Below the pieces are notes generated by a model that saw nothing but the letters and a program-made list of their open reading frames with translations, searched no databases and was not told the DNA's origin. A stretch of DNA of 29,737 nucleotides from IMG/VR virus record IMGVR_UViG_3300000116_000123, positions 1-29,737 of that record; one strand, given 5' to 3'. The DNA is from a virus. Below are positions 1,514 through 15,358 of this stretch, in pieces. The translations under genes were made by a program, and so were the position numbers. Each line of letters starts with the position of its first letter. The first letter of the stretch is position 1.

Positions 1514-3301
1514 TTACTTAGTTGTTGGGTAAGCACCTTTGTTAGGCATGTCTACTGGTCTTACATCAACCTCACTTGGATTGTTTGGTGCTACAAAACC
1601 TTCTGATAAAGCCTCTTCTTCGCTTACTTGTTGTTTCTTCTTATATACTCTTCTCTCCCAAAAGTGGTGACAGTTCTTACCACCCTTATATTTAAAGAGA
1701 GAATAGTTACGGCCTTTATGGCCTAACTCTCTATTGACCCCTCTGAAAGACATCTGATTGATGTCTTCTAAGCGGAATACAATGTCCTTCTCTGTTAAAG
1801 ATTCTACTTTAGAGCAGAATTGACGGCTCTCAGAGGACTTTCTCACTGGCATGTATGCGTAACGCACCTTGAAGCCTTTATTGTCCTGAGAACTCTTCTT
1901 AGAGGGTGCAGCGTCATCACGCTTCACCTCTGCAAGTTTAGTAAAGTCAAATTCCTCATTCTCGTCAGTAACCTTCTCTGTATGCACAAGTTCCCACTCA
2001 TCAGAGATTACTTCACCCATCTCTTCTAATTGGTCGAAGATGTCATCGGCTTCTTCGTCTGACAAATCTGACAAGTCTTCTTGCACTTGTTTTGACAGCT
2101 TTTCGCCTGTTTCTTCTTCTCGTTTAACTCGTGTTTCAATGTTATCAAGCTCTGTAAATTCTATTGGTTGTAAGGTTACGAAGTACAAGTTAAGTACAAT
2201 GTTATTGAAGGCAAGGATCTCATCCAGGCCATCAATAATCTGCTGTTGGAATGGTCTAATCACCATGTTATCCATGATGATTGACGCTGTTCTAAGCTCC
2301 TCTGCATTGTTACCAAAACCAGTATTATCCTTAATACCTAATAGAATTGGTGATACAATGCGGTGTCCTAACATTATCTTCTCTCTCGACTCATCAGCCA
2401 AGAACTGATATTGCGCATGGGCATCAGGGAGATGAATTGGATCAATAGTCGCTTGCTCCTCACTTGACTCGTTGAACGTAAGTATGAACTTACCTGCATT
2501 CGAGCTTCCGCTAAATTTATCATATATCTTTCTTTCGATTAACTCTTGAGTCTCCTCATTCGGCACTCCATTGTTGAAGTTAACCAATAATGAAGGCTGT
2601 AGGCCGTTTTGGATATTATTGATGTGATAGTTTGCCACTTCTTCCTCAAGGTCACAGTACTGCAAACATCCATTATAATCCACAGGAGCATAGTAATAAA
2701 ATCCTGACTTGTAAGGTTTGAATATATAAAGTTCAATAACTTCGCTCTTAGAGCCATTGCCAAACGTAGGTATTCTTTTCGGATTGTCACTTGGTTTTAA
2801 TTCAGACCATTTGTGGTGGTAGTAATAAGCTTCTATGCGACCATTCTTAGCCTTCTCTGCTCTCAAGGTCTCCATTGGAAAATGAAGCACCTTAGTGATT
2901 GCAGTCTTTTGCTTATTGTAGATAACCTGTACCGCAGCTTGTCCAAGAAGCTTATAATCGTTTACTACCCTTCTCATTTCACGAGGTCTAAGAAGTAGCT
3001 TCATCTTAGCATACATCTCAGGCTTCTCTGCACTATCAGTAGCATCAAGACCTCTACCATAGATCATCTCTGTAATACCATTGATACAGCATGAGTTTGT
3101 AGGGCTGCCTAAATAGTTTTCAATAAGACCGTCAAAATAATCTTGACCGTTCTCTCCATTTAAATACAGCACCCATTCTTTGCTGTGCTGCTCCACTACT
3201 TCAGGAGACTGATAGCCACTAAGATTTACTACCTTAATGCTATCCTTGTACTTCCTTGATTCTTGCGTAGTGTTTACTAATTTTACTCTGCTTCTTGCCA
3301 T
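1514..3301 (-). CDS. Portal protein with C-terminal Cys/His module
   Basis: This 595-residue protein has the features of an HK97/SPP1-type portal: an N-terminal domain with 'FDGLIENYLGSPTNSCCINGITEMIYGRGL' (about 57-86), a central wing region with 'DYKLLGQAAVQVIYNK', and a clip/stem part with 'HRIVSPILLGIKDNTGFGNNAEELRTA', then a coil and a Glu/Asp-rich stretch. Twelve copies would form the DNA entry channel at one capsid vertex. Residues about 477-560 form an extra module (RYAYMP..., C496, SFRGVNRELGHKGRNY, then NCHHFW at 543-548) that recalls the end of MuF-type minor head proteins. The gene sits between the tail-tube region and the head-tail connector gene. The portal call is firm; the role of the extra module is unknown. 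Confidence 0.87.
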   Translation of the reverse strand: MARSRVKLVNTTQESRKYKDSIKVVNLSGYQSPEVVEQHSKEWVLYLNGENGQDYFDGLIENYLGSPTNSCCINGITEMIYGRGLDATDSAEKPEMYAKMKLLLRPREMRRVVNDYKLLGQAAVQVIYNKQKTAITKVLHFPMETLRAEKAKNGRIEAYYYHHKWSELKPSDNPKRIPTFGNGSKSEVIELYIFKPYKSGFYYYAPVDYNGCLQYCDLEEEVANYHINNIQNGLQPSLLVNFNNGVPNEETQELIERKIYDKFSGSSNAGKFILTFNESSEEQATIDPIHLPDAHAQYQFLADESREKIMLGHRIVSPILLGIKDNTGFGNNAEELRTASIIMDNMVIRPFQQQIIDGLDEILAFNNIVLNLYFVTLQPIEFTELDNIETRVKREEETGEKLSKQVQEDLSDLSDEEADDIFDQLEEMGEVISDEWELVHTEKVTDENEEFDFTKLAEVKRDDAAPSKKSSQDNKGFKVRYAYMPVRKSSESRQFCSKVESLTEKDIVFRLEDINQMSFRGVNRELGHKGRNYSLFKYKGGKNCHHFWERRVYKKKQQVSEEEALSEGFVAPNNPSEVDVRPVDMPNKGAYPTTK

Positions 3302-3302
3302 A

Positions 3303-3665
3303 TTATATTACTATGTATTCTGTCTTACCTGGATTATACTCGTTATAATTGTCAGGCAACGTAAACACATCTTTCTTACTTGTTTCCTCTGTGATATACA
3401 CAAGGTCTCTGTAATAGATGTCTGTATCAGACTTTATTGTTAGCGTGTATATTTGACCCTCCTTCAATGTTAAAGAGGGAGTAAATGTAACTTCAATATA
3501 GTTACCATTCGATGATTCTGCCCAAGTAAAACTTGCGGAAGGATCATCTACATCTGTACCATTCTCTACAAACGTAATGTCTGCTGCATTTAAATCAGCA
3601 GCCACATACGAAGAAGGTATGATGCTGAATGTTTGTGCTGTTTGTATTGGTTTAATTCGTATCAC
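3303..3665 (-). CDS. Hypothetical virion protein before portal (GTG start)
   Basis: This gene encodes 120 residues, starting at GTG 3665 (first residues MIRIKPIQTAQTFSIIPSSY). No ATG near the N-terminus keeps the conserved-looking start, so GTG is the best choice. The sequence alternates in beta strands (ADITFVENGTD, YIEVTFTPSLTLKEGQIYTLTIKS), suggesting a small immunoglobulin-like or jelly-roll fold. The C-terminus ends PDNYNEYNPGKTEYIVI, an ending I have seen on small proteins beside portals in Bacteroidetes phages. It is separated from the portal start by one base. Head decoration or connector roles are both possible; neither is shown. Confidence 0.6.
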   Translation of the reverse strand: MIRIKPIQTAQTFSIIPSSYVAADLNAADITFVENGTDVDDPSASFTWAESSNGNYIEVTFTPSLTLKEGQIYTLTIKSDTDIYYRDLVYITEETSKKDVFTLPDNYNEYNPGKTEYIVI

Positions 3666-3666
3666 A

Positions 3667-3681
3667 ATAGGGTAACTAAAG
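3667..3681 (-). promoter_or_regulatory. Leader motif CTTTAGTTACCCTAT upstream of 3665 gene
   Basis: This 15-base element sits one base upstream of the GTG start. Almost the same word lies directly before the tail chaperone (14623-14637) and, less well conserved, before the protease gene (7795-7809). It could be a late promoter element or a translation leader. Confidence 0.35.
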
Positions 3682-3705
3682 ACACTTGTTTTTGTTTTCT
3701 ATTGG

Positions 3706-3740
3706 ATATAAAAAAAGAGGCCTTACGGGGCCTCTTTCTT
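3706..3740 (-). terminator. Rho-independent terminator after tail-tube gene
   Basis: On the minus strand the hairpin AAAGAGGCC-CCGTAA-GGCCTCTTT (arms 3729-3737 and 3714-3722) is followed by a run of seven T on the minus strand. It lies 18 bases after the stop of the gene at 3759-4274 and would end or weaken transcription before the portal gene set. Confidence 0.85.
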
Positions 3741-3758
3741 ATCTGCCATTACATACTA

Positions 3759-4274
3759 CTATGAAGAAGCAGCAATAGTACCAGTACAAAGGTTAGCAGG
3801 AGTAAGCTCCATAGCTGAGAAGCTAAGAGTATATCCACTTAAATCTCCCATTGCAGCACCAGTAACAATAGTACCTCCTGTTACGTCAGCACCATGCTCT
3901 CTACCTACTAAGAAGAAGTTTCCATTGTAGTCTTCTACTACAATACGAGGTCTTCCCCAAGCAAGAAGTTTTACTTGATAGTTATCTTCCTTAGATAGTT
4001 TAGGTAAGGTTAGTTCTAACACCTGCTCGAAAGCAACTGTTCCGTTCTCTCTTGACGCCTGGATATTCGTAGTAAGTGATGAAGTTCCTTTTAGTTCATA
4101 CTTATAGTTCGTAGCATCCCAAGTGGCATCAAAAGCAACTGTGTCTTCAGAACCAGCAGTCTCTACAAGTGGAATAGAAGCAGCAGCATCATAATTGATG
4201 AAGTAAACATTCTTTAATCCACCTACGGAGTCTCTACATGGTAATGTTCTTCCAGTGTCGATTACACAAGCCAT
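3759..4274 (-). CDS. Putative major tail tube protein
   Basis: This gene encodes 171 residues starting MACVIDTGRTLPCRDSVGGL, a conserved-looking start with two cysteines. The body has repeated beta strands, including 'RENGTVAFEQVLELTLPKL' and 'LLAWGRPRIVVEDYNGNFFLVG', and ends 'GYTLSFSAMELTPANLCTG'. The last part resembles the final strands of tail-tube proteins, where 'GYTLTFxGxExxPA' is common. The gene is flanked by two strong terminators, so it forms its own transcription unit end, typical of an abundant structural protein. It follows the capsid gene. Assignment as tail tube rather than a capsid decoration protein is inferred from size, C-terminus and expression signals. Confidence 0.55.
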   Translation of the reverse strand: MACVIDTGRTLPCRDSVGGLKNVYFINYDAAASIPLVETAGSEDTVAFDATWDATNYKYELKGTSSLTTNIQASRENGTVAFEQVLELTLPKLSKEDNYQVKLLAWGRPRIVVEDYNGNFFLVGREHGADVTGGTIVTGAAMGDLSGYTLSFSAMELTPANLCTGTIAASS

Positions 4275-4291
4275 ATTTTAGATTTTTTATA

Positions 4292-4337
4292 TTAAAAAAG
4301 GGTAGGTAGGCTCTAAGGCTTACCTACCCCTTTTCAG
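4292..4337 (-). terminator. Rho-independent terminator after capsid gene
   Basis: The minus-strand RNA would form a long stem in which GGGGTAGGTAAG pairs with CCTACCTACCC (one wobble and one bulge), followed by six T. It lies 16 bases after the stop of the capsid gene. Together with the terminator at 3706-3740 it brackets the tail-tube gene. Confidence 0.85.
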
Positions 4338-4352
4338 TTAAACAATTATTTA

Positions 4353-5297
4353 TTATGCAAGAGTTAATAAGGCAAGGTCAGAACCAATACCGTATTGTAC
4401 ACCTGCAGTAAAACGCATGATTACACGAACGTTTTGTGAACCGTCAAGGTCTCCCATGTCGATTACTTTTACTTCGTTGTGGTCAGATAATAGACCAGTA
4501 CCGAAGTAAAGGTTTGAAGCCTCACCAGCTACGATGTGGTCAGATGGCATACCTGGAGCAAGCTGAACTTTGATTCCTTCGAATGAAAGAGCGTTACCCA
4601 TGTTATACCAAAGTGATCCTTGAGCGTTAACCCCAGCAGCACCTTGACCTGAAGCAGCAAATCCACCTAAAGCACGAACGTAAGCTTGGAAAGCTACAGT
4701 TGGAACATAGATAGTTAAGTCTTCTTTACCATAAACTGCAGAAGGAAGAGCGTCTACTACGTTTCCTAATAGAGTAACGATGTTAGAAGAAGTGAATGAA
4801 GTTTCAGATCCGTTAGCAGCATCGTTTACATCTCCGTCAGCAGCCATAAGAACTGTGAATCCGTCAAACTCACCTGCAGTAGCGTTAACACCACCCCAAA
4901 TGTTTTGCTCAGTCTTCTCAGCTACTTTACCAGCTACATGAGCGATAAGGAAGTCAGCGAAGTTTGGAGGAAGTTGGTCAAAAGTAGAGATTCCCATTTG
5001 TACAGCCTCCCAGTCAGAACGGAAGTCTTTTTTACAAAGTTCTACGTTTACTTGGAACTCCTCAGGCTGAATGATACGCTCTGTTAAAGTAACGCTTCCT
5101 GTGTCTGCGAAGTCACATCCTGCATTAGCAATAAGTCCAGAGGTAGCCACTTTCTTGATGACTTCTTTGTACTTGATGTTTGGTTTGATGCTGATAGCAG
5201 CATCGTTCAGGGTCTTACCTGAAAGTAGCGCAGCCGAGATATACTGATTTGCAAACTGGCCCGCATAAGTTGTTGTGATTGAAGTTGTAGTTGCCAT
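4353..5297 (-). CDS. Major capsid protein (HK97-fold type)
   Basis: This gene encodes 314 residues, normal for a Bacteroidetes siphophage capsid subunit. Notable stretches are the N-terminal 'TTTYAGQFANQYISAALLSGKTLND', 'LTERIIQPEEFQVNVELCKKDFRSDW' (a P-domain/E-loop type strand), 'AGKVAEKTEQNIWGGV' (spine helix end) and the C-terminal 'VRVIMRFTAGVQYGIGSDLALLTLA'. The gene follows a protease and an acidic scaffold-like protein, as expected for the capsid cassette. Codon use looks cleaner than in neighbours and a strong terminator follows, both consistent with high expression. The HK97 fold is inferred from length, pattern and synteny. Confidence 0.85.
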   Translation of the reverse strand: MATTTSITTTYAGQFANQYISAALLSGKTLNDAAISIKPNIKYKEVIKKVATSGLIANAGCDFADTGSVTLTERIIQPEEFQVNVELCKKDFRSDWEAVQMGISTFDQLPPNFADFLIAHVAGKVAEKTEQNIWGGVNATAGEFDGFTVLMAADGDVNDAANGSETSFTSSNIVTLLGNVVDALPSAVYGKEDLTIYVPTVAFQAYVRALGGFAASGQGAAGVNAQGSLWYNMGNALSFEGIKVQLAPGMPSDHIVAGEASNLYFGTGLLSDHNEVKVIDMGDLDGSQNVRVIMRFTAGVQYGIGSDLALLTLA

Positions 5298-5312
5298 TTT
5301 TATTTAAATAAA

Positions 5313-5774
5313 TTACTTGTTAAACATTTTAGCATAGACATTAGCCATTGTGTTGCGTGGCTTGTTGCCTGCAAATAGCTGTCTTTGTACTGTTGGTTCT
5401 ACTTCAGGAGAGTGAGAGATTGGCTCTGCAGCTGGCTCTTGAGCAGATAATTCTTCTTTTGCAAGTTCTTCGGTTGGAACCTCAACTTGCTCTTGCATCT
5501 CTTCAGAGATTAATTTCTCAGCTAATGCATCATACATAGCTTTAATTTCAGAGATAGCACTTTCGAAGTCAGACTTACTAACATATTCTACTTCTACTAC
5601 CTCTTTTTCTTCCATGCCGTCTTCAGCCATTTCTTCTTGACCTAACTCGACTGGTTCGTTTACTTCTACTTCTTCAGCAGCAAGTTCAACTTGCTCTTCA
5701 GCAGGCTCAACTTGTGGCTCCTCAGCAGAAAGAAGGACAGACTTTAGTTTGTCCACGATTTCAGTTGCTTTCAT
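5313..5774 (-). CDS. Acidic scaffold-like capsid assembly protein
   Basis: This gene encodes 153 residues with extreme Glu/Val/Pro/Ala bias: repeated 'EEPQVEPAEEQVELAAEEVEV' style segments in the first 60 residues, then a helix-forming stretch 'SKSDFESAISEIKAMYDALAEKL' (about 66-88), another acidic segment, and a basic C-terminus 'RNTMANVYAKMFNK'. An acidic, coiled, low-complexity protein directly before the major capsid gene is the usual profile of a scaffolding protein, with a basic helix at the C-terminus that binds the capsid shell. It would be degraded by the prohead protease encoded upstream. The role is inferred from context; such proteins diverge too fast to be recognised by sequence. 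Confidence 0.6.
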   Translation of the reverse strand: MKATEIVDKLKSVLLSAEEPQVEPAEEQVELAAEEVEVNEPVELGQEEMAEDGMEEKEVVEVEYVSKSDFESAISEIKAMYDALAEKLISEEMQEQVEVPTEELAKEELSAQEPAAEPISHSPEVEPTVQRQLFAGNKPRNTMANVYAKMFNK

Positions 5775-5826
5775 AAATACTTAATTTATATTTGGTTAAC
5801 TATTGATTAAACATTCTGTTGTATTT

Positions 5827-5973
5827 TCAGTATAAACTTCCAATACCTTGATTTATCATACGGCCTCTACAGCACTTTCTGCTATAGGTATTACCTTTCT
5901 TACATAAGCAAGCCCTGCGGTTTTCCTTCGGGCTTGTTCTACTCCATCTTTCTCCATAAGGTGATCTACGCAT
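5827..5973 (-). CDS. 48-residue Cys-rich micro-protein
   Basis: The protein starts MRRSPYGERWSRTSPKENRR and continues with a CxC-x9-CC motif (C22, C24, C34, C35), then ends NQGIGSLY. I remember similar 'RRxCLCxDGxTYSxxCC...QGIG' endings in virion regions of Bacteroidetes phages, so this is likely a real small family. The ATG at 5973 overlaps the upstream stop in ATGCGTAG, which fits coupling. A longer frame beginning at 6027 exists, but it would overlap the upstream gene much more and lacks the conserved-looking part. The four cysteines could bind a metal or form disulphides in the virion. Function unknown. Confidence 0.6.
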   Translation of the reverse strand: MRRSPYGERWSRTSPKENRRACLCKKGNTYSRKCCRGRMINQGIGSLY

Positions 5974-6601
5974 AGCTTTGTACTTTTTGTATAAAGAATA
6001 TGATATCCCAAATCTGAGATGCTCCACCTACTGAGGTGATGTTCCATTGACTACCACTATTCATAAAGTTTGCATCTGCATAGTATTGGAATACTTGATG
6101 GTAATCGTGTGCGGTATCGTTTCCTTTAGGGTAGGTAATTGTATCTCTAATTCTATCGTAAGGAGTTCCATTACCACCCTCAAAGTTTATCTCTAAGTAA
6201 GTTTGATTAGCATTCGGTGCTTGGTACTTAAATACAATAGTCATTAGGTAAGTATCGTTCTCATTATCCGCTAACACCTTTAGTGTACTTGAATCGTAGT
6301 AATCAACACCCGTATAACTTCTATAAGAAGTCGCTGCATTATTAGGTAATACAACACCAACTCCATCTGCTAAGGTTAGCTTACTCGCTGAGGTGAATTG
6401 CCCGTCATCGTATCTTGCCCATCCAATACCTGATCCTGCTCCTGATTGTGGATATAGCTTTACCCACTCACCATTCCATACAGTCCATACTCCTGCAGCG
6501 GTAGTTACATAAGCACCTTCTTCGATGTTATAATACAGACGTTCTTCCTCTGTATTTATATCGGCTTTTGTTCTGTAAGATGTGTTAAATACGTCTGCCA
6601 T
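5966..6601 (-). CDS. Fibre-like virion protein between protease and capsid
   Basis: This gene encodes 211 residues. The N-terminal part (about 1-55) has 'NIEEGAYVTTAAGVWTVWNGEWVKLYP', an adaptor-like Trp/Tyr-rich motif seen in phage fibre proteins. After a Gly-rich linker (SGAGSGIGW) the C-terminal 140 residues form a beta-rich domain (KLTLADGVGVVLPNN, TYLMTIVFKYQA, QIWDIIFFIQKVQ) that resembles compact trimeric head domains of fibres. The start codon overlaps the stop of the protease gene as TAATG. Because it lies inside the capsid cassette, a head-fibre or capsid-decoration role is more likely than a tail-fibre role. This is inference from layout and composition. Confidence 0.55.
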   Translation of the reverse strand: MADVFNTSYRTKADINTEEERLYYNIEEGAYVTTAAGVWTVWNGEWVKLYPQSGAGSGIGWARYDDGQFTSASKLTLADGVGVVLPNNAATSYRSYTGVDYYDSSTLKVLADNENDTYLMTIVFKYQAPNANQTYLEINFEGGNGTPYDRIRDTITYPKGNDTAHDYHQVFQYYADANFMNSGSQWNITSVGGASQIWDIIFFIQKVQSYA

Positions 6602-7794
6602 TATTTCTTAACACAATTAGGAACTCGTTTACCATCTTTCATCTTCCATCCGTCTTGTTTATATCCTTCCCAACACAAACTTGTCATATCAGTGTGTTGA
6701 AAGCATGGCATATACCATTCTCTGCCATCAAGTTCGTGAGTGTGATAACCTTCACACTTAATATCTTTAGCAGCTAATTCAGCTGCAGCTACTGTTGAGT
6801 AGGCGAGTCTGCCATCTATAATGGCAAGATCGCCCATAATAGCAACCTTATCCTCATTTAGGCTTAGTTCGTCTAATCCTTTTAGCTTAGACTCTACCCA
6901 ATTCTTCATTGACTTACCTCCCCATAGAAGATAGCTTATTGTACCGCAAGCCTCTGGCTTTGCTGGGTCGTAGTATGCTTCTGCTCTGCTTAGGTAGCTG
7001 TATATTCTCTTCAGGGTTGGTACTGTGAATTTCTCTTTCCTTGCGAGCTGTTGCGCTCTTACTTTCCCTACCTGAGTTGCGCATTTATTACCTAATTCTT
7101 TATTGCGTTTGATACCTAATTTAGCGTTATTAGAAGCACTCTCAGGATAACCTCCATAAGACTCTAATTGTACTTCCTCTTCTAAAGCAGCTACTGCTTC
7201 TAAAAGAGCATATTCCGCTTGTAGTTCCTCAAAGCAATCTGAGCAAAGGTCTTCTTCCACAGATTCTTTAGGTCTATTAGTGTTATCACTAAAATAGCCC
7301 TCAATAGAAAAACCTTTAACTTTACCACTCTTAACAAACTCTTGCCAAACTTCTTCATTGTTTACTTTTACAGATACCATCCATGTACCTTCAGGTACAT
7401 TTAAGTTGTATAATTTAGACTTATCTTTTTGGGGATCCTCAACAATCCAAGACTCTACAACGCTCAATCCGTTGAGGTCATATTGATGTTCTAACGTAGA
7501 ATTGTTTTGATTGCCCCTTGCAAGAAATAGCTCTGATGCCTTTCTCACTGTATCTTTAGAGAAGAAGATATAATACTCCTCTTCATCATTACGTCTGTAT
7601 ATCTTTCTGTCAGGAATAAGCGCAGGCCCCATTAAGATGCGCTTGTCTGTATCTACCTCAGCCATTTCAATTTTGTGTGCCTTGAGGGCCACAAAATCCT
7701 CTTCAATGGCAGGCTCTTCAACAATAGAGATAGCTTCTACTCCGCTAAACTCATTGTCTTCTTCTATGAATAATTCGTAAACCTTATAGTCCAT
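6601..7794 (-). CDS. XkdF-type prohead protease with C-terminal modules
   Basis: This protein has 397 residues. The first 175 match the XkdF-like phage serine protease family (Peptidase_U35_2): 'MGPALIPDRKIYRRNDEEEYYIFFSKDTVRKASELFL' at 55-91, the probable catalytic His in 'STLEHQYDLNG' (H103) and the probable catalytic Ser in 'KGFSIEGYFS' (S163). Its job would be to cleave the scaffold during head maturation. Residues about 220-310 hold a separate module with 'GNKCATQVGKVRAQQLARKEKFT' and 'AYYDPAKPEACGTISYLLWGG', a motif set I recognise from many phages but cannot assign to a reaction. The end repeats short 'CEGYHTHELDGREWYMPC' and 'DGKRVPNCV' elements. Such mosaics are common in this phage group. 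It precedes the capsid genes. Confidence 0.8.
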   Translation of the reverse strand: MDYKVYELFIEEDNEFSGVEAISIVEEPAIEEDFVALKAHKIEMAEVDTDKRILMGPALIPDRKIYRRNDEEEYYIFFSKDTVRKASELFLARGNQNNSTLEHQYDLNGLSVVESWIVEDPQKDKSKLYNLNVPEGTWMVSVKVNNEEVWQEFVKSGKVKGFSIEGYFSDNTNRPKESVEEDLCSDCFEELQAEYALLEAVAALEEEVQLESYGGYPESASNNAKLGIKRNKELGNKCATQVGKVRAQQLARKEKFTVPTLKRIYSYLSRAEAYYDPAKPEACGTISYLLWGGKSMKNWVESKLKGLDELSLNEDKVAIMGDLAIIDGRLAYSTVAAAELAAKDIKCEGYHTHELDGREWYMPCFQHTDMTSLCWEGYKQDGWKMKDGKRVPNCVKK

Positions 7795-7809
7795 ATTAGG
7801 ATAACTTAA
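7795..7809 (-). promoter_or_regulatory. Leader motif before protease gene
   Basis: The minus-strand word ATTAAGTTATCCTAA touches the protease ATG. It matches 12 of 15 bases of the element before the tail chaperone gene. It lies in one of the few gaps inside the virion operon, so an additional late promoter here is plausible. Confidence 0.3.
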
Positions 7810-7824
7810 TTGTTAGTATTCGTT

Positions 7825-9531
7825 TTAAATTGATGCTCCTTGAACAATATTTCTTTCTAATTGCTGTGCGGTAGTTACGTCTGAAGAAACTACATAAGCC
7901 CTCATAGGTTCTTGTTGAGAACCAAGTATAGCAGCAGCTAACTGATTCTGTGTAGTAGCACCTACTACATTAAAAGTTGGAGCCTGACTAACAGCAGCTG
8001 ATGGCTCAGAGCCTATATTTGCAGCAGAAGGAACAGCTACAGGGGCTTTAAGTGCAGATACTGCTTTAGCCGTAGAAGCAACGTTAGCTGCGATACCTAC
8101 TTTTGCAGCAAAATTATTAGCTGCTATTTCAGCCTTAGCAAGAACTTGCCCTCCTGGCACGAAAGCGTATTTTAATGGTGCTGCAGCGTTTGCAGCTTTT
8201 GTGCTAATTATAATTTTAGCAATACCAGCAGCTGATTCACCAATAAGAGCAACTGCTTGTAAAAATCTACTCTCTCCTCCAAGGTCAGATATTATTTTAA
8301 ATATCGAACCAATACTATTCGCATAAGACAGATTAATTTGCTCCATAGCATTTAATTTAATCTGTTCATTTCTCAACTGCATATCTCCAAGTTGTTGAGT
8401 AGCTATAACATATTGTCTATAATAAGCAGTTCTTTCCTCAAAACTAAAAGCTTCTTTATTAGATAAATTTTGAAAGAACGTAGCTTTCCACTGCAAGAAA
8501 CCTTCATCATCTCTAACTTCTGCTTCTTGCGCTACTCTTCTTTGTATATAGGAATTTCTAAAAGATGCGATAGCTCTTGCACCTTCTCTAATTATTGCAG
8601 ATATAGAACGCTCTCTTGTTTCGTTAAGATCTTCTTTCTCCTTTTTAGTTTTACCAGTAAGAACAATCTCTTCATTTGCTTGATAGTTTAAGAACTGAAT
8701 TGCCCTTTGTTCTGCATCAATAGCTTCTGTTAAGTCAAGTCTTGCTTGACCAAGACGCATAGATTCAGTTTGTATTGCTTTTTTGTTGTATGGTTCTTCT
8801 TTTTCAAGACGAGTAAGCTCTTCTTGAGATTTTATTAATGCTTGCTGCGCTTTATTCTGATTTATTCTTGCATTAAGAAGATCATTACCTGCATTAATAG
8901 CTGCATTATAAACTTCTTGAGTAATTGGGCCTTCTTTTCTTAATTCTTCTAAGTAGCTACCTACTTCCTTCATGTTTTTAGCAAAGAGCTTAGAAACATC
9001 ATTACTGTATTGAAAACCAATCTTAGATAATTCATTAAATATGAATTGCTGTTCCTGAAGAGTAGCATTCATTTCATCAAGTTCCTTCTTGGTTTCTTCA
9101 GATTCCTTTTTAGCTCTTCTCATAGATTGAGCAAAAAAGTCTATTGCAGCGACTGCTCCTTGGAATAGTAATAATATACCAGCAGGGCCTGCCATCACTC
9201 TTCCTAAATTAGTTAATGCATTGCCTACACCATTAGAAGAACTGACAAGTAATGCAAACATAGATCCCAACTGAGAGATGTTGTTTGTTACCGCTTGAAT
9301 ACCATAAGGCATATCTGATATAGTTCTACCAAGTTCCGCAGCGGTAGCTCCTGCAATACCTGCTGCGCCACCAAAGTCATTAGTTGCCTTAGATGCCTTC
9401 TGAAGTTGCTGTTCAACTATTTTAGCATTAGACGAAATAGATTTTAATTGCTTATTAATCTCAGCTGTTCCGCCAACTACCTTACCTGTCTGTAAGTCTA
9501 TTTCTATTAATATCTGTTTAACGTCTGCCAT
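7825..9531 (-). CDS. Tail tape measure protein
   Basis: This gene encodes 568 residues with the features of a tape measure protein. The N-terminus 'ILIEIDLQTGKVVGGTAEINKQLKSI' leads to a long helical coil. A hydrophobic stretch 'AGPAGILLLFQGAVAAIDFF' (about 113-132) could insert in a membrane. Long Gln/Glu/Lys coiled-coil regions (about 135-290 and 355-400) follow, then an Ala-rich hydrophobic C-terminal half. The protein spans the tail lumen, sets tail length and helps DNA pass into the cell. The length suggests a rather short tail for a siphovirus. Unusually, it lies five genes after the tail chaperone instead of next to it. Confidence 0.85.
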   Translation of the reverse strand: MADVKQILIEIDLQTGKVVGGTAEINKQLKSISSNAKIVEQQLQKASKATNDFGGAAGIAGATAAELGRTISDMPYGIQAVTNNISQLGSMFALLVSSSNGVGNALTNLGRVMAGPAGILLLFQGAVAAIDFFAQSMRRAKKESEETKKELDEMNATLQEQQFIFNELSKIGFQYSNDVSKLFAKNMKEVGSYLEELRKEGPITQEVYNAAINAGNDLLNARINQNKAQQALIKSQEELTRLEKEEPYNKKAIQTESMRLGQARLDLTEAIDAEQRAIQFLNYQANEEIVLTGKTKKEKEDLNETRERSISAIIREGARAIASFRNSYIQRRVAQEAEVRDDEGFLQWKATFFQNLSNKEAFSFEERTAYYRQYVIATQQLGDMQLRNEQIKLNAMEQINLSYANSIGSIFKIISDLGGESRFLQAVALIGESAAGIAKIIISTKAANAAAPLKYAFVPGGQVLAKAEIAANNFAAKVGIAANVASTAKAVSALKAPVAVPSAANIGSEPSAAVSQAPTFNVVGATTQNQLAAAILGSQQEPMRAYVVSSDVTTAQQLERNIVQGASI

Positions 9532-9667: not shown

Positions 9668-11696
9668 AATAATTAATCAATTCAAATTCTGTCTTGCCTG
9701 TAGTAACATCTACATTCATATTATTAATCCTGTACTTATTATCGTTGATAATAACTATATCAGACAATTTAATCTCATCTCCACCCTTCACTAATTTCTT
9801 AGGAGGTAAATAAGACTTTACTTTTGTGATTCTATTGTCTACATCAAAGATGTTTACTATATAGCTCTCATAGAAACGCTTGAATAGCGTTTCAGTAGCT
9901 GCTATATTTTCATACTCACTAAGCTCCGCATTAAAGTGTATATTGTCAGAAGTATAATCATCTATATCCTTTAAATTAGAAGGCATATTAATACCTGTGC
10001 TTGCTGCTATTGATGATAGTGTTCCGTTGTCATTTACAGACAACTTAACTCCCGTAGCAACCTGATTAATGTATAGTATAAAAGGATCTCCTAAATACGC
10101 ATCTTGATTATCATCTACATAGTACCCATACATTACCTCAGTATCTGTAGCATTGTTAGACAAGTCAAGAAGCTTCTCAAACTTAGAGTGGTTAAACATA
10201 GGCTCGACCTTATAGGTCTCCCCGTACAAATCATCAGAAGTAGTATATTCATTACCTCCCCACTCTACATTAGATATTTCTTGCAAGTGTTGCGCAGCAA
10301 GAATAGTCTTTGTGTCTGTGTATTTAAAGAAGATTTCCTTGAATGGAAGTGCTACGTTTATTTCAGACTCATTAACATCTACATACTCCGTAATATCATG
10401 CTCAGTTGATATATAATAAGTGTCTAATGGCTGCACTTCTATCTCACCGCTATCATCTACATAAGCAACCAAGTTAAACATCTTAAATAGACTTGATAAG
10501 AAGTCCATAATCTTCATCTCAGGTATCTGCTCTTGTACATTAAATGTAATAGAAGCATCATAACTCTTACTGCTAACAGTAAACTCATCTGCTCCCGAAG
10601 AAGGCCCTGAGTAAGTACATCTCCATTTTAGCTGACTAAAGCTTGCATCTGCATCATACGTTCTGATATAAGCCTTAAACTTATAGCCATTGGTAAGCGG
10701 ATCAAGAACGGTCATTATAGTGCTTCCTGTATTGTCTTTCTGCTCTTGATATAGCGCATAACCCGAACCAGTATCTCTATAGATAGCAATATCGTATCTG
10801 AAGTCAGAAGAAGAGGCCGTAGTTTGAAAAGTAAGTACATCTGCGGTATGCGTAGCCTCATAAATCATTACTCCCTCAGTATCTGACTGAACTTTAAGCA
10901 CTACAGAGGTTGCATTTTCACTCGGATTGAATCCTGAGACCACTTGAGGGTCTCCTGCAGTAATTTCTATCTTTCCTTTCTTTCTGTGACACCACATATA
11001 CAAAGAATGAATGTCTTTAGTAGCATCATGGAAGAAACTATTGCTTGAAAAAGTAATTCCGCTATATTTAGTCTCTATAGCATCAATAATTTGGTCTAAT
11101 CTGACTGCATACTTGAGTTCCTTAGGATCTAATCCTCTAACATAGGTGGCATTGTAGTACAAATTACCCGTATCAGTAGTAGTATCTGTAGAATCATAGT
11201 ATAAACGCTGTTCTGCAGTCACTAATGGCAATGCAGTGGCTCCTGGAGCCGTCTGCAGTGCTGTTAATATCTCAGAATTAGAATATCCGAGGTCTAAAGA
11301 AGATAAAGCATCTAAATCAGTCAGTTTATCCTCTCCAATGATGTCTTTTAGGTCAATTACACTTCCAAAGAAGGTAATATTGTATGCATAAGGGGCATTA
11401 TTCTTCATTTTTACCCCATTTAGCTTAATTTTGCCGTCTTTGAACGGCAAATTATTGATTTCTATGCGTGCTGACTGTGTAGTACGAGCATCAAAGCCCC
11501 CTGTGATGTAATAATTGTAATAATGCTTAAATATCTTATTGTTTTCTTTACTCGCAGGCACAGTAAACTGCTTGCTGAAGGTCGTAAAGACCTTTGCAAT
11601 GTCTCTTGCGTTCTTTATAGACTCTACAATAGATATATTCTCATCTTTAAATAGGTCTAAGCGAGTATCATTTATATATAGCTGTACTGTTTGCAC
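9660..11696 (-). CDS. Large tail-tip (Dit/Tal-type) protein, GTG start
   Basis: This gene encodes 678 residues. It starts at GTG 11696, which overlaps the upstream stop as TAGTG. The first 70 residues (VQLYINDTRLDLFKDENISIVESIKNARDIAKVFTTFSKQFTVPAS) match a conserved start I know from tail genes of Bacteroidetes phages and prophages. The rest alternates beta strands and loops, with regions 'MKIMDFLSSLFKMFNLVAYVDDSGEIEVQPL' (about 397-427) and 'GKTEFELINYYD' at the end, typical of hub or tail-associated proteins. It probably forms part of the tail tip that caps the tube and carries fibres. No peptidoglycan hydrolase motif is visible. The role is inferred from the family start and from position upstream of the tape measure. 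Confidence 0.65.
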   Translation of the reverse strand: MQTVQLYINDTRLDLFKDENISIVESIKNARDIAKVFTTFSKQFTVPASKENNKIFKHYYNYYITGGFDARTTQSARIEINNLPFKDGKIKLNGVKMKNNAPYAYNITFFGSVIDLKDIIGEDKLTDLDALSSLDLGYSNSEILTALQTAPGATALPLVTAEQRLYYDSTDTTTDTGNLYYNATYVRGLDPKELKYAVRLDQIIDAIETKYSGITFSSNSFFHDATKDIHSLYMWCHRKKGKIEITAGDPQVVSGFNPSENATSVVLKVQSDTEGVMIYEATHTADVLTFQTTASSSDFRYDIAIYRDTGSGYALYQEQKDNTGSTIMTVLDPLTNGYKFKAYIRTYDADASFSQLKWRCTYSGPSSGADEFTVSSKSYDASITFNVQEQIPEMKIMDFLSSLFKMFNLVAYVDDSGEIEVQPLDTYYISTEHDITEYVDVNESEINVALPFKEIFFKYTDTKTILAAQHLQEISNVEWGGNEYTTSDDLYGETYKVEPMFNHSKFEKLLDLSNNATDTEVMYGYYVDDNQDAYLGDPFILYINQVATGVKLSVNDNGTLSSIAASTGINMPSNLKDIDDYTSDNIHFNAELSEYENIAATETLFKRFYESYIVNIFDVDNRITKVKSYLPPKKLVKGGDEIKLSDIVIINDNKYRINNMNVDVTTGKTEFELINYYD

Positions 11697-13359: not shown

Positions 13360-13817
13360 ACAGAGATATTATTAGGTATATCTATAGTAATATCCATTGA
13401 CCATCCTGCTAATTCATTCTCAAATCTGTCTTTGAATGGCTCACATACAGGATCTCCTACCAACTGATATTCCTCTCTGTATAAATCGCCACGCCTTAGG
13501 TCTTGAACCAAGGCGTTGGCAATCTGTAGTTGAGTATTATAAACATCAATCAAATTACTCGCATCTTGTCTATCCCCTAAGTCATTTGCATTATAGTCCT
13601 TTGTATAATCCACTATGTCCAAGAACAATAAAGACACCGTCACACGCATAGCGTGTTCGGTGATGCTTACATTACCTATAAAAAAGTGGGTTAATGGGAA
13701 CATAGTAGTCTTATTTAAGTCCACCTGAGTAATATCCCCATAGGTAACGTAATTAACTATAGGGTTTTCTCTAAGAAAACTTTTTATAGTGGTTATGATG
13801 TCATATACACTTGTCAT
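13353..13817 (-). CDS. Tail terminator-like protein
   Basis: This gene encodes 154 residues: a helix with basic residues at the N-terminus (VYDIITTIKSFLRENPIVNYVTYG), then strands (SITEHAMRVTVSLLFLDIVDYT), an Asn/Gln-rich helix (VYNTQLQIANALVQDLRRGDLY) and the end 'PFKDRFENELAGWSMDITIDIPN'. The alternation of strands and helices, and the final long strand, fit the tail-terminator family that closes the head-proximal end of the tail tube. Its ATG overlaps the stop of the frameshifted chaperone product (ATGA), which supports translation of that product. The call is based on remembered family pattern and synteny. Confidence 0.55.
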   Translation of the reverse strand: MTSVYDIITTIKSFLRENPIVNYVTYGDITQVDLNKTTMFPLTHFFIGNVSITEHAMRVTVSLLFLDIVDYTKDYNANDLGDRQDASNLIDVYNTQLQIANALVQDLRRGDLYREEYQLVGDPVCEPFKDRFENELAGWSMDITIDIPNNISVC

Positions 13818-14619
13818 AGTCTGTTTTTATTATATGCTTCTTTTATTCTTTTCTCTTCTAATTCGTTCTTCTCCTTCTCAAATACTAACCAAGTCAAACA
13901 CTTCGTTAAGGGTTCCTCTGCAACCTTATCAAACTTTGTGACATCTCCTCCAGCGAGTGCATAAAGTGATTGATACCAACTCCATTTGCTTCCAAAAACT
14001 TGCTCTCTACTTGCTGGCGCTGCTCCTCGGTCATCTGTTTCAGTGAAGAGTCCATCGTATGTTTCGACAATTTCATTCCTAAACGATAAAAAAAAACCAA
14101 CGCTCCTAACGCTACATTAGCAGGCATGTATTGCATATAGCCTGCATACTTAGCAGAACCCTCATAGTCCTCTATCTCATAGAACTCTCCCTTCTTAGCT
14201 GTAATCGGTCTAAATAATATTGCCATTGCCTTATGCATCTGCTTCCAATCACCAATATACCTGTCCAAGTCTATGTACTCCCCAAAGGAAATGTTGCTTA
14301 AATCAGGTATCATCCCAAACTCAACCTCCGTTCCATTATTACCTCTGAACCAAAACCGCTTCACAAGCGGTGTAGGTTCTTGTAAGCATGTAGCTATCTG
14401 CTCCAAGACAGCCTCAAAAGACTTCATAGGAAGCTTATAACTCTCTTTAAGTTCTAAGCCACAGAAGATCTCTAAAGCCTTCATATTTACAAACTCCCCT
14501 GCCTCTTCGGTCTGCTCCTCAATACCATTAATTACTTGAACGTACTTTTGGTACTGATCCAATTTAATGTCAGCTAATCTTTGCGGAATACTAAGTTCTA
14601 ATTGTATTGTCTTTGCCAT
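13814..14619 (-). CDS. Tail assembly chaperone fusion product made by -1 frameshift
   Basis: Reading starts at ATG 14619, slips back one base on the T9 run (14096-14088) near codon 177, and continues in the -1 frame to a TGA at 13816-13814. This gives about 177 + 91 = 268 residues. The -1 extension is open for 91 codons with no start codon of its own. It is protein-like throughout: 'FGSKWSWYQSLYALAGGDVTKFDKV' and 'PLTKCLTWLVFEKEKNELEEK' resemble the conserved T-domain of tail chaperones in this phage group. Its stop overlaps the next ATG as ATGA. Known lambda-type systems make a G and a G-T protein in a fixed ratio to load the tape measure. Here the slip occurs about 60 codons before the G stop, so both frames code for a long stretch. 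A homopolymer assembly error is the alternative. Confidence 0.65.
13906..14619 (-). CDS. Tail assembly chaperone, unshifted product
   Basis: This gene encodes 237 residues. The N-terminal 175 (LELSIPQRLADIKLDQYQKYVQVI..., 'FWFRGNNGTEVEFGMIPDLSNISFGEYIDLDRYI') match a family common beside tail genes of Bacteroidetes phages and annotated as tail assembly chaperone. After the T9 run the zero frame continues 60 codons (YRLGMKLSKHTMDSSLKQMTEE ... GVGINHFMHSLEEM) before TAA at 13906. This tail also looks like real protein rather than noise. The product would bind the tape measure and tail tube monomers during assembly. It is the first gene of the virion operon, downstream of the GIY-YIG island. A leader motif lies just before its ATG. 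Confidence 0.75.
   Translation of the reverse strand: MAKTIQLELSIPQRLADIKLDQYQKYVQVINGIEEQTEEAGEFVNMKALEIFCGLELKESYKLPMKSFEAVLEQIATCLQEPTPLVKRFWFRGNNGTEVEFGMIPDLSNISFGEYIDLDRYIGDWKQMHKAMAILFRPITAKKGEFYEIEDYEGSAKYAGYMQYMPANVALGALVFFYRLGMKLSKHTMDSSLKQMTEEQRQQVESKFLEANGVGINHFMHSLEEMSQSLIRLQRNP
14087..14097 (-). promoter_or_regulatory. Candidate -1 ribosomal slippery site (T9)
   Basis: The minus strand reads G-GTT-TTT-TTT-TAT in the zero frame. A slip by one base on consecutive TTT codons keeps perfect pairing and enters a 91-codon open frame. Nine T in a row inside coding sequence is exceptional here. Confidence 0.6.
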
Positions 14620-14908: not shown

Positions 14909-15358
14909 ATGAAGCATACGAAACAAAGAAGAGTAGGTAAGAAGAAGTTTAATCAACTAATTAATGAAGAAGTCAATAAGATAGAAGCGCACAGACCCCC
15001 AAGGGTCAAGCGCAATGGAGTAGAACTTAATACAGATAAGCAAGTAGAATATATCAAAGACAAGGAAGAGATAAGTGCTACCTCATACCAATCTAAACGG
15101 CCCCTGTCTAAACAGGGCCGTTTGAAGACAGCCTACTTCAATACTCCATGTATATACCTACTATATAAGAACGATAAGATAGTCTATATAGGTCAAACTA
15201 AATGCCTGGCTAAACGCATATCAGATCACTTCGATTCAGATAAAGAGTTTGACAACTTCGTTGTACACTCTTTCATAGAAGAAGAATACATTAGACTAAA
15301 GAAAGAACAAATACTTATTCGCAAACACAAACCAGCCTACAATGTGATCCATAAGTAA
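14909..15358 (+). CDS. GIY-YIG endonuclease (free-standing homing type)
   Basis: This 149-residue protein is the only plus-strand gene in the window. The N-terminal 75 residues are strongly basic (KHTKQRRVGKKKFNQL, RPPRVKRNG) and probably bind DNA. The C-terminal GIY-YIG domain is clear: 'CIYLLYKNDKIVYIGQT' (Y83, YIG 93-95), Arg in 'AKRISDH' (R103), the metal-binding Glu in 'LKKEQILIRKHKPAYN' (E133) and the final Asn (N145). All catalytic positions are present, so it should be active. Such genes in phages act as homing endonucleases or as seg-type free-standing nucleases. It lies between two divergently organised blocks, and the surrounding sequence differs in composition, which fits transfer. 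A strong hairpin lies inside the gene at 15095-15123. Confidence 0.85.
   Translation: MKHTKQRRVGKKKFNQLINEEVNKIEAHRPPRVKRNGVELNTDKQVEYIKDKEEISATSYQSKRPLSKQGRLKTAYFNTPCIYLLYKNDKIVYIGQTKCLAKRISDHFDSDKEFDNFVVHSFIEEEYIRLKKEQILIRKHKPAYNVIHK
15095..15123. repeat. 12-bp inverted repeat inside GIY-YIG gene
   Basis: TAAACGGCCCCTGT and ACAGGGCCGTTT form a hairpin with one bulged C and a 4-base loop. It encodes the linker between the basic N-terminus and the nuclease domain. Its G+C content stands out from the gene. It could be an RNA element, a minus-strand transcription stop, or the nuclease's own recognition region. Confidence 0.55.

Follow-up and report, generated by a model that had tools for sequence, protein, structure and literature searches.

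Organization of the locus

The window, meaning the whole stretch of 29,737 nucleotides of viral DNA that was analysed here, carries on its minus strand an open reading frame for a G-like protein, a run of nine T (T9) within it, and an open -1 frame that leads from this run through a T-like domain to the next gene (Table 1). Around the run the zero frame reads GTT TTT TTT TAT, which sets the heptamer T_TTT_TTT in phase, and the -1 reading from the run is FFLSFRNEIVETYDGLF...KWSWYQSLYALAGGDVTKFDKV...NKNRL, followed by the stop. Sixty zero-frame codons lie between the heptamer and the zero-frame stop, so that the two frames share about 180 nt. The ends of both frames and the position of the run, as placed in a preliminary description of this DNA, were correct when re-read from the sequence. 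T9 is the only A/T run of at least nine in the window and is present in all relatives examined that reach the site, and is therefore not a product of chance. The AF2 model of the 237-residue G protein has a pLDDT of 83 overall and of about 40-70 in the 60-codon tail, and that of the T-like -1 extension has a pLDDT of 78.

No function was assigned to the next gene by any library searched. Directly upstream of the frameshifted gene, on the opposite strand, lies an ORF for a GIY-YIG nuclease (UvrC-like N-terminal; 14909-15358, plus strand). The late region (1514-9531, minus strand) places tail-like genes before head genes (protease, major capsid, portal), which reverses the usual order, and most of its proteins are without a name in all libraries.

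Table 1. Features of the frameshifted gene pair and its neighbour, in window coordinates
Feature	Coordinates	Strand	Remarks
Zero-frame ORF, G-like protein, 237 aa	13906..14619	-	ATG at 14619, stop 13908-13906; includes the 60-codon tail past the slip site
T9 slip run (A9 on the plus strand)	14088..14096	-	in-phase heptamer T_TTT_TTT at 14095-14089
-1 frame extension, T-like domain, about 91 codons	13814..14087	-	stop TGA 13816-13814; without an early start codon
Double-coding stretch, constraint on both frames	13909..14088	-	rate and openness tests
-1 frame portion past the zero-frame stop, single-frame	13817..13905	-	internal control, normal synonymous rate
Next gene, 154 aa	13353..13817	-	start codon (ATG 13817-13815) overlaps the -1 stop (ATGA)

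Relatives and conservation of the T9 run

Relatives were drawn from IMG/VR as a first set of 32 (36-98% identity), a second set of 80 more out of at least 576, further sets of 63 around the isolated phage P12024 and 50 from a second clade, and 32 matches to other seeds that lay partly on contigs fetched before. Bacterial assemblies contributed six homologues, including those in Galbibacter pacificus (an 871-kb contig) and in Winogradskyella and Psychroflexus bins, and because of these the hosts are most likely Flavobacteriia. The gene family is widespread in Bacteroidota phages, where it is unannotated. No close DNA relatives were found among isolated phages. The Galbibacter homologue (L192; strain CAA-3, NZ_JAQSVC010000002) is probably part of a provirus; it has 76 zero-frame codons past the slip, and its T frame extends only about 8 codons beyond the zero-frame stop. 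One contig of this Bacteroidota-associated phage family (L190) was found in a Campylobacterota bin (Epsilonproteobacteria), probably through a binning error.

The preliminary description had proposed a -1 slip at T9 into a second frame and an alignment of homologues across the run. The T run and the open -1 frame occur together in every relative that reaches the site (more than 200 examined), and the run is never T7 or T8. An in-phase T_TTT_TTT with an open -1 frame of 83-93 codons was present at 115 of 115 loci from the first two scans, a set in which three loci were cut by the contig end. All 160 distinct sequences examined for run length carried the run, as T9 in 148, T10 in 11 and T12 in one; T9 is found throughout the second clade and also in the divergent L246 and L275 lineages. 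The seed patterns operated at the amino-acid level, so that Phe-Phe was partly selected by the search and the choice of TTT codons was not. Upstream of the slip site in G, TTT accounts for 68% of Phe codons (TTC 32%) and GTT for 38% of Val codons. The isolated phages P12024S and P12024L, at 26% identity, retain T9 and both domains. A homopolymer sequencing error is ruled out by the recurrence of T9 in independent contigs and in these isolates.

Length of the overlap and evidence for double coding

Past the heptamer the zero frame remains open for 54-84 codons in most lineages. Shorter overlaps occur in P12024S/L (25 codons), L128 (16), the L193/L219 clade (24-38) and L246-L248 (about 39), and mapping the short-overlap state onto a tree of 59 G proteins takes two changes, versus 9.4 with shuffled labels. 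The zero-frame tail had been described as looking like genuine protein. Its distal part (GVGINHFMHSLEEM) is real coding sequence in the lineage of the window, and the description stands there; this part is missing from three short-overlap lineages and is thus a lineage trait. The claim that lambda-type systems have a short overlap holds for the measured cases, which are 5 codons in lambda, 6 in P2 and about 6 in N15; HK97 can have at most 16 and TM4 at most 14. D29 and Bxb1 gave loose upper bounds alone (73 and 49), and the comparison therefore does not cover chaperone genes as a whole. The overlap in the window is ten times longer than in the textbook lambda case.

Zero-frame openness is not expected from the -1 protein alone. 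Given that protein and each phage's own G codon usage, the mean probability of an open zero frame is 0.019 (about 2% per phage), and the product over 25 clusters, which share ancestry, is about 1e-52. The third frame holds 6.5 stops on average over the overlap and is open in 0 of 88. A milder shuffle that permutes the codons present gave a probability of 0.27, because stop-forming codons are already rare in the overlap. Zero-frame similarity by itself does not demonstrate coding in this case: a tblastn search with the Galbibacter zero frame runs beyond the zero-frame stop of its relatives, the conservation being carried by the -1 frame, and for this reason rate tests were used.

Substitution rates support purifying selection on both frames over about 60 codons, which agrees with the constraint on both frames suggested in the preliminary description, where a test of rates per frame had also been proposed. 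Relative to single-coding G, -1 synonymous divergence in 57 independent long-overlap pairs was 0.34 in the head, 0.49 in the linker and 0.51 in the core of the overlap, and returned to 0.96 (0.84-1.10) past the zero-frame stop. Where the T core is free of overlap (14 short-overlap pairs), the value was 1.03 (0.77-1.25), versus 0.51 (0.43-0.59) in the long-overlap pairs. The balance between the frames changes along the overlap: constraint falls mainly on the zero frame close to the slip site (pN/pS 0.26 versus 0.83, close pairs), is shared equally in the linker, and falls mainly on the -1 frame in the core (0.15 versus 0.89). Past the zero-frame stop the -1 frame has a pN/pS of 0.22, so that T is conserved as protein.

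A constraint at the RNA level would slow every silent site, and it can be separated from constraint on the frames since doubly silent sites change at the normal rate. Leu first positions that are silent in both frames differ in 12 of 56 cases in the overlap and in 109 of 556 in G-only sequence. Wobble sites of the overlap that are silent only in the -1 frame differ in 212 of 1987, fewer than the doubly silent sites (p = 0.015) and fewer than wobble sites past the zero-frame stop (134 of 709; p = 7e-8). Zero-frame replacements in the overlap had no conservative bias (BLOSUM difference 0.06, CI -0.07 to 0.19), and no conserved stimulatory RNA structure was detected past the slip site (mean z about -0.45). 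Selection on the zero frame is therefore shown by rate, not by the kind of replacement or by the model of the tail.

Mechanism of the frame change

The passage from G into the T frame is almost certainly a programmed -1 transition at T9, as judged from the sequences compared. The transition is bounded upstream by the last -1 stop, which at its closest is a single codon ahead of the run, and downstream by the zero-frame stop. Within these bounds no conserved candidate other than the T run is present. If GT is a real protein, single proteins that match both models would be expected, and Foldseek searches of viral predictions returned eight such proteins of 226-267 aa (e.g. A0A516L611, A0A6J5N0W0), which suggests that single-frame GT forms exist elsewhere. 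Such forms are indicated by fold alone; the DNA of these proteins was not found, and tblastn searches of phage records with two junction-spanning GT queries (L219, L192) returned only P12024.

Such a transition is ordinarily explained by tandem slippage of ribosomes on U_UUU_UUU, which we consider likelier than slippage by RNA polymerase. Ordinary overlapping genes, with T started separately and no frameshift, would fit the annotation of a separate T ORF in P12024S/L but are very improbable: there is no ATG, GTG or TTG in the -1 frame before the conserved core in 100 of 145 representatives, as had been observed for the window, and an ATG in only 11, and the T run itself is kept at silent positions. 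Slippage of RNA polymerase on T9, which would yield mRNAs with extra or missing U and GT by ordinary translation (the loss of one U would truncate G a few codons on), is a possibility to be taken seriously, if clearly the lesser one. The run is never under 9, though T7 is enough for ribosomal slippage; its codon register has moved in L190 and in L246-L248 (to three full Phe codons) and its length is still 9; there is no downstream RNA structure, and runs of at least 9 are rare elsewhere. Nine A or T is also the stated length at which bacterial polymerases slip (PMC5009743), and bacterial genes with transcriptional slippage (Thermus dnaX, Shigella spa13 and many IS elements) resemble the window in having an A/T run of about 9 and two products per gene (PMC5009743), although they are not phage tail genes. 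Against polymerase slippage, the two flanking T in most relatives can also be explained by the coded residues ([VLIF] before the run and hydrophobic L/F in the -1 frame after it), the register has changed in only two lineages, and lambda-type chaperone genes use ribosomal -1 shifting (PMC5009743).

With ribosomal slippage as the preferred mechanism, most translation of the gene would yield G, and a minority of ribosomes would shift -1 on T9, with tandem slippage of tRNAs on U_UUU_UUU as the most likely route. In the GT product, residues 1-177 of G would be joined to a helical T domain. In the lineage of the window, the zero frame left open past the slip would add about 60 residues to the C-terminus of G, overlapping most of the T-domain sequence, with both products under purifying selection; and the G/GT pair would probably act, like lambda gpG/gpGT, as a two-form tail-assembly chaperone in a fixed ratio. 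We infer the shift in vivo, its ratio, ribosomes as its agent and the chaperone role. The account as a whole, comprising the -1 shift, the overprinted tail and the chaperone-like pair, appears fairly likely.

Probable function of the gene pair

In lambda, G binds the tape measure and T binds the tail tube protein (PMC5009743). Several properties of the locus are shared with lambda gpG/gpGT and with HK97 gp13/14 and P2 E/E+E': translation from a single start, a slippery heptamer for -1 shifting towards the end of G (in phase in all distinct relatives examined), a C-terminal T domain that has no start codon of its own and is conserved as protein, and a position among late structural genes. The predicted pattern of many G and some GT in that region matches lambda gpG/gpGT. 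The differences are considerable as well. Past the slip the frames overlap by about 6 codons in lambda, P2 and N15 and by 60 in the window, the slip site is T9 rather than GGGAAAG or TTTTTTG, and there is no detectable homology or fold match to the lambda-type pairs. Gene order also differs, since the lambda pair lies between the major tail protein and the tape measure, and in P12024S G/GT comes straight after terminase.

Searches of Pfam, NCBIfam and named PHROGs gave no named family for G, T or their neighbours, and neither protein had a match in the PDB by sequence or by fold (Foldseek); G and T were thus not linked by sequence or fold to any characterised chaperone. Against viral predictions, Foldseek placed G-related models in many unnamed phage proteins. 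Immediately downstream of the gene comes a series of unnamed late genes, and no recognisable tape-measure gene is adjacent; a candidate tape-measure gene, unnamed in the libraries and proposed from its composition, lies several genes downstream (7825-9531), and a candidate gene for the tail tube protein is placed at 3759-4274. The label of tail chaperone given in the preliminary description is therefore plausible by pattern and lacks a match in these libraries or an adjacent tape-measure gene. By analogy with the lambda pair, a role in tail assembly as a chaperone is nonetheless probable, and we would hold it with good confidence.

Other readings concern the role of the zero-frame tail and of the pair itself. 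The tail could be without function as protein and could serve to keep ribosomes moving through the T region, leaving no untranslated gap in the mRNA and bringing ribosomes near the next start. In keeping with this, the start codon of the following gene overlaps the -1 stop in many relatives (ATGA in 50 of 145, TAATG in 47 of 145), and the tail is poorly structured in the model, is not conservative in its replacements and differs in length between lineages. Openness alone, however, cannot explain halved change at sites that are silent in the -1 frame and alter the zero frame, beside doubly silent sites that are not slowed, and we consider a tail without protein function improbable. That the frameshifted late gene pair has a function other than that of a chaperone, as a head, neck or other assembly factor, is unlikely to much the same extent, being only slightly the more credible of the two. 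The unusual gene order speaks for it, as does the failure of sequence, profile and fold searches to connect the pair with known chaperones, but in long-tailed phages a low-abundance, conserved -1 extension within the cluster of late structural genes is the known G/GT chaperone signature (PMC5009743), and the candidate tape-measure protein is encoded only a few genes downstream.

Flavobacterium phage 6H (L195, NC_021867) was set aside as a comparison since its gp10 is a weak fold relative of G without T9. In this phage an unannotated T-like ORF occupies the gap at 10047-10352 up to gp09, with the annotated tape measure protein encoded a few genes further downstream, and the transition between frames is different.

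Implications for related phages

Frameshifted tail genes are usually described as a G protein with a T tail added near its very end. In the phages considered here the two forms would differ in their C-termini over at least 60 residues, both under selection, and G would not simply be GT cut short. Lineages with short and long overlaps and the same T domain provide a natural experiment in which double coding is visible from substitution rates, and the family would be an assay target for distinguishing ribosome from polymerase slippage in Bacteroidota. A broader proposal, which we regard as doubtful, is that a Bacteroidota phage family makes G/GT through RNA-polymerase slippage at a fixed T9 and has 54-84 T-domain codons overprinted with a second, selected G C-terminus. 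Should this be true, two chaperone forms would differ by two distinct domains taken from the same DNA.

The finding also accounts for ORF pairs that are unannotated in isolated flavobacterial phages. The Nonlabens (Persicivirga) phages P12024S and P12024L have homologous G and T with T9 in the same place, and their zero-frame tail of only 25 codons past the slip leaves the T core without double coding, unlike the window. In their records, P12024S_38/39 (L034, JQ823122.1, 8001-8695) and P12024L_40/41 (L035, JQ823123.1, 2001-2695) are annotated as separate hypothetical proteins, and each of these pairs looks like a single frameshifted T9 pair.
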